In this document: in pieces, positions 44,107 to 47,136 of the stretch
Position numbering within the stretch: the stretch's first letter is position 1
Layout of the letters: every line of letters begins with the position of its first letter
DNA from: Demequina sp. NBRC 110055
GTDB taxonomy: Bacteria; Actinomycetota; Actinomycetes; Actinomycetales; Demequinaceae
Length of the DNA: 64,000 nucleotides
NCBI RefSeq assembly: GCF_002090135.1
Contig: NZ_BBRL01000004.1
Span: 992,001 to 1,056,000 of the forward strand
Reading direction: 5' to 3'
Notes under the pieces: model-generated
Databases searched by the model: none
Told to the model about the DNA's origin: nothing
The model's input: only the letters and a program-made list of their open reading frames with translations
Made by a program: the position numbers and the translations under genes

Positions 44107-44210
44107 GTACCGCTCAACACACGGCAGTGACGCACGTGACTGAGGGGGCTGATGTGAATGCGCATCAGCCCCCTCAGTCACATCATCACCAGGTGTGTGT
44201 TGAGCGGTAC
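44107..44210. repeat. Nested long inverted repeat after hemH
   Basis: Outer arms GTACCGCTCAACACAC (44107-44122) and its complement (44195-44210) pair over 16 bp. Inner arms 44136-44154 and 44163-44181 pair perfectly over 19 bp with an 8-nt loop; the two stems are separated by unpaired 13-nt strands on each side. It may be a strong bidirectional terminator between convergent genes or a MITE-like insertion; no transposase is nearby. Confidence 0.75.
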
Positions 44211-44233: not shown

Positions 44234-45910
44234 TCAGACGGCCGATGCCATGGCCGGCTGGGCGGCCGTCGCCGCCTGGCCGTCGCGCCAGGTGAGGTAG
44301 CCGCCGTCGAGGTTGACCGCGTCGTATCCCAGTTGGCGCAGCAGGCGGGCGGCGGTGTGGCCGCGCTGGCCCACCTGGCAGTGCACGACGATCGTCTTGC
44401 CCTGCGGCAGCTCGCCGTGACGGGCACGCAGCTCGTCGACGGGGATCGACAGGGGCTCCTGCCAGTCGACGGTGACGGTGCCGCAGGCGTGCTCGGCATC
44501 GGTGCGCACGTCGAGTACCACCGGGGCCTCGTCGGCCGTCAGGTCGTGCCACTGCACCGACGGGGTCTCGCCGGTCGCAAGATTCTCGGCGACGTAGCCG
44601 AGCATATTGATGGGGTCCTTTGCCGAGCCGTAGGCGGGGGCATAGGCCAGCTCGAGGTCGGCCAGCGAGCTCGCGGTGAGGCCTCCGGCGATGGCGGTCG
44701 CGATGACGTCGATGCGCTTGTCTACGCCAGCCTCGCCCACGCCCTGGGCGCCCAGGATGAGGTCGGTGTCGGGGTCGACGAGGAGCTTCAGGGTCATCTG
44801 CGCCGCGCCGGGGTAGTAGCCCGCGTGGTGCATGGGGTGGGTGTGGATGACCCGGTGGGGGCGGCCCTCGGCCAGCAGGCGCCGCTCGGAGCGGCCCGTC
44901 GCGGCGGCGGTAAGTCCGAACACACCCACCACGGCGGTGCCGATGCTCGGCACGGCGTGGTGCGCGCGACCCGCGATCACGTCTGCCACGCGGCGGCCAT
45001 GACGATTGGCGAGGTTCGCCAGCGGAATCAGCGTCGGGCCGTCGCCGAACGCGTCGGCCTTAGTAGCCGCGTCGCCCACCGCGAAGATGGCGGGGTCAGA
45101 GGTGCGCATGTCGTCGTCCACGAGGATCGAGCCGCGCGGGCCCAGGTCGAGTCCGGCGTCGGCCGCCAGCGAACCCTCGGGCTGGACGCCGATCGCGGCC
45201 ACGACGAGGTCGGCGGGGACCGTCTCGGTCGAGCCATCCGCGAGGGTGACCGCGGCATCGGCCGTATCAATCTGGCTGACCGAGGCGCCGGTGAGGACGC
45301 GCACGCCGTTGGCGGTCAGGCGCTGCTCCACGCGAATCGCCATTTCGGCGTCCAGCGGGGTGAGGACCTGGGGCGCGAGCTCCACGACGGTGACGTCGAG
45401 TCCGCGGTGGCGGAGGTTTTCGGCGACCTCGAGGCCAACAAATCCGGCGCCGATGACGACGGCGGAGCGGGACTCACCCGTGGCGGCCGCAAGGCGGTCC
45501 ACGTCGGCGATGTCGCGCAGGGTGAGGGCACGCTCGGCGCCGGGGATCGGCGGGACGATCGGCCTGGCTCCAGGGCTGAGGATCAGGGCATCGTAGGACT
45601 CGGTGGACGAGGTGCCGTCGGGGCCGGTCACACTGACGGTCTTCGCGGACCGGTCGATGGCGGTGACGCGTGAACGCACGCGTACGTCGATGTTGAAGCG
45701 GGCGGCGAGCGAGGCGGGGCTCTGCAGGAGCAGGGCGTCGCGCTCGGCGATGACGCCGCCCACGTAGTAGGGCAGTCCGCAGTTCGCGAACGAGGGGTGA
45801 TCGCCGGCCTCGAGGACGGTGATCCTTGCGTCCTCGTCGAGGCGGCGCAGGCGGGTGGCGGCGGACATTCCGGCCGCGACCGCGCCGACGATGATGACAT
45901 GCTGAGCCAT
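44234..45910 (-). CDS. CoA-disulfide reductase-rhodanese fusion (CoADR-RHD)
   Basis: A 558-aa flavoprotein. The pyridine-nucleotide disulfide reductase part begins 'IIVGAVAAGMSAATRLRRLDEDARITVLE'; active-site C44 lies in 'SFANCGLPYYVGG', the CoADR hallmark. 'VIGAGFVGLEVAENL' binds NAD(P)H and 'IFAVGDAATKADAF' FAD. From about residue 460 a rhodanese domain follows with C511 in 'VVHCQVGQRGH'. CoADR-RHD enzymes reduce CoA persulfide/polysulfide and disulfide. ATG 45910 has GGAAGGAA upstream. It diverges from a Cys-rich small protein and a CsoR-family regulator across a shared palindrome. Confidence 0.93.
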   Translation of the reverse strand: MAQHVIIVGAVAAGMSAATRLRRLDEDARITVLEAGDHPSFANCGLPYYVGGVIAERDALLLQSPASLAARFNIDVRVRSRVTAIDRSAKTVSVTGPDGTSSTESYDALILSPGARPIVPPIPGAERALTLRDIADVDRLAAATGESRSAVVIGAGFVGLEVAENLRHRGLDVTVVELAPQVLTPLDAEMAIRVEQRLTANGVRVLTGASVSQIDTADAAVTLADGSTETVPADLVVAAIGVQPEGSLAADAGLDLGPRGSILVDDDMRTSDPAIFAVGDAATKADAFGDGPTLIPLANLANRHGRRVADVIAGRAHHAVPSIGTAVVGVFGLTAAATGRSERRLLAEGRPHRVIHTHPMHHAGYYPGAAQMTLKLLVDPDTDLILGAQGVGEAGVDKRIDVIATAIAGGLTASSLADLELAYAPAYGSAKDPINMLGYVAENLATGETPSVQWHDLTADEAPVVLDVRTDAEHACGTVTVDWQEPLSIPVDELRARHGELPQGKTIVVHCQVGQRGHTAARLLRQLGYDAVNLDGGYLTWRDGQAATAAQPAMASAV

Positions 45911-45937
45911 GAAGATTCCTTCCGTGGGATTGCATCC

Positions 45938-45959
45938 AGAATACCCCCGGGGGTATAGT
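45938..45959. promoter_or_regulatory. CsoR/CstR-type operator between divergent promoters
   Basis: The perfect palindrome ATACCCCCGGGGGTAT (45941-45956) overlaps minus-strand -10 TATTCT (45938-45943) for CoADR-RHD and plus-strand -10 TATAGT (45954-45959) for the small protein-regulator pair. G-tract palindromes of this form are established CsoR-family operators. Confidence 0.8.
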
Positions 45960-46017
45960 GGTCGCAACCCCGCCGGTGCAGGATGCCGGCAACGTCTCAA
46001 CCTCAAGGAGTTCCCTG

Positions 46018-46179
46018 ATGTGTTCACCCACCACCTGCCGCCAGTGCGGAAAGACCACCTGGACCGGCTGCGGCCAGCACGTCGACTCGGTCAAGCGCAC
46101 CGTGCCCGCCTCGCAGTGGTGCGGCGGCCACGAGAAGCCTGCCGGCCGCTCGTTCTTCCCCTGGCTGCGCGGCAACTGA
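46018..46179 (+). CDS. Small Cys-rich zinc-ribbon-like protein
   Basis: A 53-aa protein with Cys at 2, 7, 10, 18 and 35 ('MCSPTTCRQCGKTTWTGCGQ', 'SQWCGGH'), suggesting a Zn or Fe-S binding knuckle; its C-terminus ends 'FFPWLRGN'. AAGGAG is 8 nt before the ATG. Similar short proteins occur beside CsoR-type regulators and sulfur or metal genes, but I know of no established function. It is the first gene after TATAGT at the shared operator, with a leader of about 52 nt, and is followed 1 nt later by the regulator gene. Confidence 0.75.
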   Translation: MCSPTTCRQCGKTTWTGCGQHVDSVKRTVPASQWCGGHEKPAGRSFFPWLRGN

Positions 46180-46180
46180 C

Positions 46181-46450
46181 ATGAGCACCGATGACGTTGT
46201 CGTCCAGCGCGCGGCGCTGAACCGCCTCAAGCGCGCTCGCGGCCAGCTCGACGCGGTGATCCGTATGGTCGAGGAGGGCCAGGCGTGCGAGCCGACCGTC
46301 ACTCAGCTCGCTGCCGTCTCGAAGGCGCTCGACCGTGCCGGCTTCATGATGATCTCGACCGGCGTGAAGGACTGCTTGACCTCGGACAACGAGGAGGGCC
46401 GGGAGGAGGCGCTCGAGCGCCTCGAGAAGGTTTTCATGTCGCTCGCTTGA
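46181..46450 (+). CDS. CsoR/CstR-family repressor (DUF156)
   Basis: An 89-aa all-helical repressor. In CsoR numbering, C36 and C65 are present but the copper ligand His61 is Gly61 and the preceding Tyr35 is Ala35. Loss of the His with both Cys kept is the pattern of CstR, the persulfide sensor of Staphylococcus, rather than Cu(I)-binding CsoR. It probably represses its own operon and CoADR-RHD through the palindrome at 45941-45956. The ATG follows the small-protein stop by 1 nt with no clear site, indicating coupled translation. Confidence 0.88.
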   Translation: MSTDDVVVQRAALNRLKRARGQLDAVIRMVEEGQACEPTVTQLAAVSKALDRAGFMMISTGVKDCLTSDNEEGREEALERLEKVFMSLA

Positions 46451-46462
46451 CGCCGTCGACGA

Positions 46463-46502
46463 CAGGGCGGGGCGCCACGGATGGTGGTGGCGCCCCGCCC
46501 TG
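46463..46502 (+). terminator. Terminator after the CsoR/CstR gene
   Basis: CAGGGCGGGGCGCCAC (46463-46478) pairs perfectly with 46487-46502 (16 bp, 8-nt loop), 12 nt after the stop. Confidence 0.8.
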
Positions 46503-46650
46503 GCGCATGCCTGGGGTCTTGCGCCCGCCCGCGAGCCATTGCGGCGCATTCTCGACATTGCGAAACAAGACTGTTGCGTAAATCCTCGCTGGCCGTTACC
46601 GTTGCCGCATCGCCCCGCGAGCCGGGGCCGCGAGCGTCAAGGAGCACCGC

Positions 46651-47136
46651 ATGACCGTCCCCGTGTCGACCCTCGTGCACGTCTCGGCCCTCGCCGCCGC
46701 CGTGCCGCAGATCACCGTCTCGCTCGATACCGACGGAGGGTCCACCGTCGTCGTCGGCGACGTGCCTCACGCCTCGATGTGCCCCCACTCCTTCCGCCAC
46801 GTGGTCGCGACCTGGCCGGCGGACGGCGGCCACGAGCCCTGCGTGGACGCCATCCGCTTCGACGGCGCCGACTCACGTGGCGCCGTGCTCGCGCAGGGCC
46901 AGTCGCGCTGGTTCGTGAGTGAGCTGGCCGCCCAGCCCACCGTTGCGGCGCTGCGCGCCATCAAGCCGCGTTCGCGAGGGGCGGTGGTGCAGGTGCGCTT
47001 CGACGCGGTCCTCGCCGTCAGCGTGGTGCGCCTCGAGTCGGACACCCTTGCCGCCGAGGCTCTCGACGACCTCGCAACCGAGGCCTACGCGGCATGCGCC
47101 ACCGAGCATCTCTTGTGGGCGGCCACCGCGGCCTGA
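46651..47136 (+). CDS. Uncharacterised MCxHxFR protein, paralog of the iron-operon gene
   Basis: A 161-aa soluble protein of unknown function. It shares with the 34531-35070 product the blocks 'HASMCPHSFRHVV' (C44, H46), 'SRWFVSELAAQPTVAALR' (85-102), 'LAVSVVRL' and a C-terminal Ala-rich helix ending in AC..HLL. By eye the two are about 30% identical over most of their length. AAGGAG precedes the ATG by 7 nt. It is monocistronic, flanked by terminators at 46463-46502 and 47154-47194; no iron box is evident. A metal or heme-related role is only a guess from its paralog's context. Confidence 0.7.
   Translation: MTVPVSTLVHVSALAAAVPQITVSLDTDGGSTVVVGDVPHASMCPHSFRHVVATWPADGGHEPCVDAIRFDGADSRGAVLAQGQSRWFVSELAAQPTVAALRAIKPRSRGAVVQVRFDAVLAVSVVRLESDTLAAEALDDLATEAYAACATEHLLWAATAA

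Follow-up and report, generated by a model that had tools for sequence, protein, structure and literature searches.

A Demequina locus with a probable ScCsoR-type persulfide sensor and an undescribed small cysteine protein as a recurring operator target

The window analysed here is a 64,000-nucleotide stretch (C4:992001–1056000) of the genome of Demequina sp. NBRC 110055, a member of a genus that is common in coastal and marine settings (PMC11233565). Within it, genes for a five-Cys protein, a CsoR-family regulator and a CoA-disulfide reductase-rhodanese are grouped around one perfect 16-bp palindrome (45941–45956). The initial annotation had placed these elements at 44234–46450, and all of its genes, as well as the palindrome, were confirmed. 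The features of the region are the following:

44136–44181: inverted repeat between the convergent ferrochelatase and reductase genes, with 19-nt arms (100% complementary) and an 8-nt loop; likely common terminator
44237–45910 (stop codon 44234–44236), minus strand: CoA-disulfide/CoA-persulfide reductase-rhodanese fusion of 558 aa, from Pfam and PDB matches
45930–45959, plus strand: candidate promoter of the small gene (TTGCAT, 18 bp, TATAGT), tentatively read from the sequence
45938–45967, minus strand: candidate promoter of the reductase gene (TTGCGA, 18 bp, TATTCT), likewise tentative
45941–45956, shared by both divergent units: operator ATACCCCCGGGGGTAT, a perfect palindrome that matches the ScCsoR site ATACCn6GGTAT
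46018–46176 (stop codon to 46179), plus strand: small five-Cys protein of 53 aa from an undescribed family, identified by its relatives and dN/dS
46181–46447 (stop codon to 46450), plus strand: CsoR-family repressor of the ScCsoR type, 89 aa, with C36, G61 and C65, assigned by PF02583, alignment and tree
46460–46505, plus strand: inverted repeat past the regulator gene, with 19-nt arms (95% complementary) and an 8-nt loop; likely terminator

The edges of the palindrome lie 30 bp from the ATG of the reductase gene and 61 bp from that of the small gene, whose stop codon is separated from the regulator start by a single base. The palindrome occupies the spacer of the candidate promoter of the small gene and overlaps its -10 element. 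This promoter reading is tentative, since the resemblance to a -10 element at Demequina operator sites was no better towards the gene than away from it. Downstream of the regulator, the window also encodes a 161-aa protein (46651–47133) without a Pfam or NCBIfam match, a counterpart of which is found near the regulator in another Demequina.

The regulator belongs to the CsoR/RcnR family (PF02583, 78.3 bits; cut-off 22.8). The genome encodes no other PF02583 protein, and the regulator is 98% identical to its counterpart in Demequina sp. NBRC 110051. Alignment with reference proteins bore out the earlier reading of its residues, with C36 and C65 kept and Gly61 at the position of the copper-ligand His. 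Actinobacterial relatives encoded near these operators have Gly, Ala, Ser or, once, Asn at this position and never His, which is the residue found there in copper and nickel sensors, while Firmicutes CstR has Asn. In a maximum-likelihood tree, from which TTHA1953 was left out, the 73 non-His actinobacterial rows are set apart by a branch whose support is 99/93; CstR (in its own clade, 97/89), Cu-CsoR and RcnR/FrmR are all placed outside, and the inner forks are weak because the alignment has only 89 columns. The regulator thus does not cluster with copper or nickel sensors, a grouping that the initial annotation had named as one that would refute its assignment. The description of the regulator as CstR-like fits the missing copper-ligand His, but not its phylogenetic position, which is apart from Firmicutes CstR in a separate actinobacterial clade. 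The same clade includes Streptomyces homologues with rhodanese, TauE and PDO genes as neighbours and with the operator ATACCCCTAGGGGTAT or a close form of it, and in one of these homologues the Cys residues stand, by count, at 37 and 66, as stated for ScCsoR. Judging by residues and tree, the regulator appears to be an ScCsoR-type actinobacterial sensor that would resemble CstR in its working.

We searched the 2.82-Mb genome with a strict operator motif, TACCCCNNGGGGTA, and with the looser form ATACCCN4GGGTAT, using the reversed pattern as a control. The strict motif occurs at two places and never in the reversed control, and is therefore far above chance. The looser form has exactly three sites genome-wide (control 0), all of them ahead of sulfur-handling genes. 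Besides the site in the window, one (C4:962461) lies ahead of the genes for a small-protein paralogue of 39 aa and for a rhodanese of 122 aa that carries a lipoprotein-type signal, and the other (C6:86513) ends 11 bp ahead of a thioredoxin gene. None of the three is at a Cu-type P-ATPase gene of the genome. Across Demequinaceae, the strict motif is present one to five times per genome in 43 of 47 genomes (control 0); a PF02583 protein is likewise encoded in 43 of the 47, and the motif is missing in three of the four genomes that lack this protein (Fisher p 0.001). Seven gene families account for 62 of the 68 distinct sites from Demequinaceae loci, each of these sites being no more than 300 bp upstream of a family member: the reductase at 31 sites, the small protein at 23, rhodanese at 13, the regulator at 10, a small membrane protein at 7, thioredoxin at 4 and an SQR-like protein at 2. 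Some sites were counted for two genes, and these proportions are not unbiased, since a regulator or an operator was in part the basis on which loci were selected. Demequina genomes that also encode a Cu-type C-H-C protein have no operator near it. Given that Cys pairs also answer general oxidation, and that copper CsoR and RicR share this operator class, the motif by itself is no proof of the signal. Some small genes have a second palindrome, ATGCTCGCCTGAGCAT, nearby; it was perfect at only a single locus and was dropped.

The reductase carries the Pfam domains Pyr_redox_2, Pyr_redox_dim and Rhodanese, and its Cys residues are at 44, 476 and 511, the last within the rhodanese loop CQVGQR. Its best PDB match is the CoA-persulfide reductase of Enterococcus faecalis (8a56, E 1e-158), which covers both domains. 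The initial annotation had assigned the handling of CoA persulfide and sulfane sulfur to C44 and C511, and these residues align with C42 and C508 of 8a56, both of which are needed for turnover of the E. faecalis enzyme (CoAPR), itself controlled by CstR (PMC9405070). Against the CoA-disulfide reductase model TIGR03385, the Demequina protein scored 409.6 bits, below the curated cut-off of 578.8, and it is better described as a member of the fused CoAPR/CoADR-RHD group. For PDO, the genome gave no relative other than rhodanese domains, and an SQR-like relative was likewise not found in a search that had no positive control; the local set therefore looks reductive, converting persulfide to thiol and H2S.

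The five-Cys protein, treated as a bystander in the initial annotation, turned out to be the most informative part of the locus, as a conserved family and a recurring target of the operator. Its Cys residues are at 2, 7, 10, 18 and 35. The protein is 100% identical to its counterpart in Demequina sp. NBRC 110051, and a dN/dS of about 0.12–0.26 against three Demequina relatives indicates purifying selection. We collected 131 distinct relatives, in which C2, C7, C10, G17, C18, G19, H21 and C35 are 100% conserved and W15 99%; the full conservation of Cys is partly by construction, because the collecting pattern required most of these residues, with C35 outside that pattern and with the profile and tblastn searches imposing no Cys pattern. 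In a 74-row alignment, the invariant residues are M1, C2, C7, C10, W15, G17, C18, G19, H21 and C35. The pattern common to the relatives is C2-C7xxC10-C18xxH21-C35, followed by further His or Cys: past C35, 101 of the 131 relatives have His without Cys, 30 have Cys and none has neither, the ligand-like residue being Cys at +2 or His within +2 to +4. This alternation looks like that of an exchangeable metal ligand. A hydrophobic-basic tail, defined by a loose pattern, ends 112 of 117 long forms.

No Pfam or NCBIfam model describes the small protein, with matches across 74 members at chance level only, and a profile search of PDB sequences also returned chance matches. An AlphaFold model was of middling quality (pLDDT 75, pTM 0.45) and gave no fold match. 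We found no paper on the protein in the open-access literature. In these searches it was found only in actinobacteria. Its gene is also present on many plasmids of actinobacteria (Rhodococcus, Clavibacter, Arthrobacter and Nocardia; nine records and others), in whose incomplete gene tables it is unannotated or 'hypothetical', most often without any entry.

In 38 of 79 named loci, the small gene has a perfect operator no more than 250 bp upstream, compared with 0 of 1580 shuffles. The operator distance at these 79 loci is two-peaked, many of the remaining genes being inside operons. A CsoR-like gene is found within 4 kb of the small gene in 52 of 80 loci and a reductase gene in 46 of 80. The small gene is also found single behind its own operator, or beside a rhodanese or thioredoxin gene without a regulator gene nearby. 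Among 396 actinobacterial genomes, the operator is present in 28 of 48 with the small protein and in 76 of 348 without it (p 6e-7, uncorrected for kinship); 20 of the 48 thus lack a perfect operator, and many operator-containing genomes have no detected small protein. In the genome studied here, a third paralogue (C9:36897–37016; L136:4998–5114) has no operator. It is situated directly 3' of the gene for a TM2-like small membrane protein, YILWFLFGLFGIQHFYLGKIGRG, and in two other Demequina loci the operator, the small gene and a gene for a membrane protein of similar type are arranged consecutively.

The initial annotation presented a sulfide/polysulfide switch of this kind as little described in Actinobacteria, yet ScCsoR of Streptomyces coelicolor was already shown in 2020 to be a repressor that answers sulfane sulfur (PMC7533328). 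ScCsoR binds ATACCn6GGTAT and is released from DNA by polysulfide, when Cys37 is persulfidated, and it forms no di- to tetrasulfide links between its two Cys, a mark of Firmicutes CstR (PMC7533328). The S. coelicolor circuit, with its CsoR-like regulator, PDO, rhodanese and TauE, has the clade, the C-G-C signature and the operator class ATACCn6GGTAT in common with the Demequina locus, Cys 37 and 66 corresponding to 36 and 65 here. Its targets, in contrast, are oxidative (PDO) and include TauE, whereas those of Demequina are the reductase, thioredoxin, exported rhodanese and small Cys protein. The control of PDO that marks the S. coelicolor circuit was not found here, which separates the target set but not the type of sensor. 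The small protein was not found in any of the 11 genomes listed for the Streptomyces group. The sensor type and the operator are therefore known; what differs is that the target set is reductive and that an undescribed small protein is repeatedly among the targets.

CstR of Staphylococcus aureus and E. faecalis is likewise a CsoR-family repressor with two Cys and without the copper-ligand His, and its E. faecalis target CoAPR (C42/C508; PMC9405070) is a close match of the Demequina reductase; however, the His position of CstR is occupied by Asn, and the CstR proteins of S. aureus, Streptococcus pneumoniae and Enterococcus make up a separate clade (97/89), with the Demequina regulator outside. 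Copper CsoR of Mycobacterium tuberculosis and Streptomyces lividans shares the fold, the length and a related G-tract operator, but it uses C-H-C ligands instead of C-G-C and belongs to another clade, and no copper genes are under the Demequina operator. TTHA1953 of Thermus thermophilus is also a two-Cys CsoR-family repressor over sulfur genes, but it has another binding sequence and controls Sox genes at distant loci (PMC10318464).

Read from the genomes themselves, the arrangement of genes and operators, the regulon predicted from it, the placement of the regulator on the tree, its residue signature and the conservation of the small-protein family argue that the locus probably encodes a persulfide- or polysulfide-sensing repressor of the ScCsoR type, with three operators and sulfur-clearing targets that include the small protein. 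The switch proposed in the initial annotation is accordingly retained as the best reading, given the residues, the tree and the three operators at sulfur genes, with the ScCsoR precedent that it had missed now added. In the Demequina genome, the regulator would hold the three operators closed, and on the palindrome in the window it would directly block both promoters. A build-up of persulfide or polysulfide would modify Cys36, with Cys65, and take the regulator off the DNA, a step that homologues support. We infer that persulfide is the signal and that release would open the divergent reductase-rhodanese and small protein-regulator units in the window, together with the second small Cys protein, its exported rhodanese and the thioredoxin. 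In the reductase, Cys511 of the rhodanese domain would accept sulfane sulfur and hand it to CoA, and Cys44 and FAD would then reduce CoA-SSH to CoA and H2S, as the homologous enzyme suggests; thioredoxin may reduce other persulfides. The small protein, a putative zinc-ribbon-like sulfur-handling protein, would most likely combine a zinc-ribbon-like site (C7, C10, C35 and H38 or C37) with the free thiols C2 and C18 to hold, buffer or relay sulfane sulfur. A fuller reading is more tentative, with the odds leaning slightly against it: that it represents a new family with a zinc-ribbon-like body, reactive thiols and an FFxxLFGR-like C-terminal tail that might dock to the membrane or to an enzyme, acting as an actinobacterial persulfide carrier or sink. 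Such a family might have been overlooked because its members are short and often not annotated.

The CsoR fold, an operator resembling those of Cu-CsoR and RicR, the standing of the regulator as the sole PF02583 protein of the genome and the metal-binding look of the Cys/His set in the small protein would also suit a copper (or nickel or zinc) sensor of the CsoR/RcnR type, with the five-Cys protein storing or chaperoning metal. This is very improbable, given that the copper-ligand His is replaced by Gly here and by Gly, Ala, Ser or Asn in all relatives of the clade, and that the tree sets the regulator apart from copper and nickel sensors. Moreover, the targets are rhodanese, persulfide reductase and thioredoxin, the Cu-type P-ATPases are distant from all three operators, and the Cu-type C-H-C proteins of other Demequina genomes have no operator nearby. 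A general thiol-redox sensor, answering disulfides or electrophiles and governing a broad thiol-stress response, is unlikely too: the remaining targets here (rhodanese and CoA-persulfide reductase) and those of relatives (SQR-like, PDO and TSUP) are sulfide or sulfane-sulfur genes, and the ScCsoR homologue answers polysulfide, even though a two-Cys protein that lacks a metal site and has thioredoxin among its targets could behave in this way, and TTHA1953 loses DNA affinity when Cu(II) or H2O2 drives disulfide formation (PMC10318464).

A different role for the small Cys protein, compatible with the persulfide switch, would be that of a regulatory partner, for instance an anti-repressor acting through binding to the CsoR-like protein. 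The frequent proximity of the two genes (52 of 80 loci, at up to 4 kb), separated here by one base, speaks for such a partnership. Nevertheless, small genes also occur singly behind their own operator, beside rhodanese or thioredoxin genes without a nearby regulator, and as paralogous copies, so an effector fits better and a partner role seems doubtful. Under the preferred reading of a persulfide-sensing repressor, the Demequina locus is most likely used to sense and clear reactive sulfur, and the small protein, conserved across many actinobacteria, seems to be a component dedicated to the sulfur response.

With these results, probable ScCsoR-type sensing of sulfane sulfur is no longer confined to Streptomyces but reaches many families of actinobacteria. 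One operator, together with Gly, Ala or Ser at the His position, provides a means to tell such sensors from copper CsoR, with which annotations often lump them as 'metal-sensitive transcriptional regulator'. The locus also supplies a small set of testable components from a marine genus that can be cultured, and it points to an undescribed family of small proteins with already predictable regulation.

Some further occurrences of the operator were observed. In six Demequina loci, it precedes the gene for a small membrane protein (WPARRW...DLIxNPVFGRExPP) that has no Pfam match and is possibly part of the sulfur response. Five genomes of one actinobacterial family (f23) contain 15–33 copies of ATACCCN4GGGTAT (control 0), which could mean that the regulon is much larger there or that the copies belong to a repeat element. 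In Micropruina glycogenica, two non-His CsoR-like genes (L193:5515 and 5864) are found in one cluster, along with the small protein, a rhodanese, a thioredoxin, an SQR-like gene and three operators.
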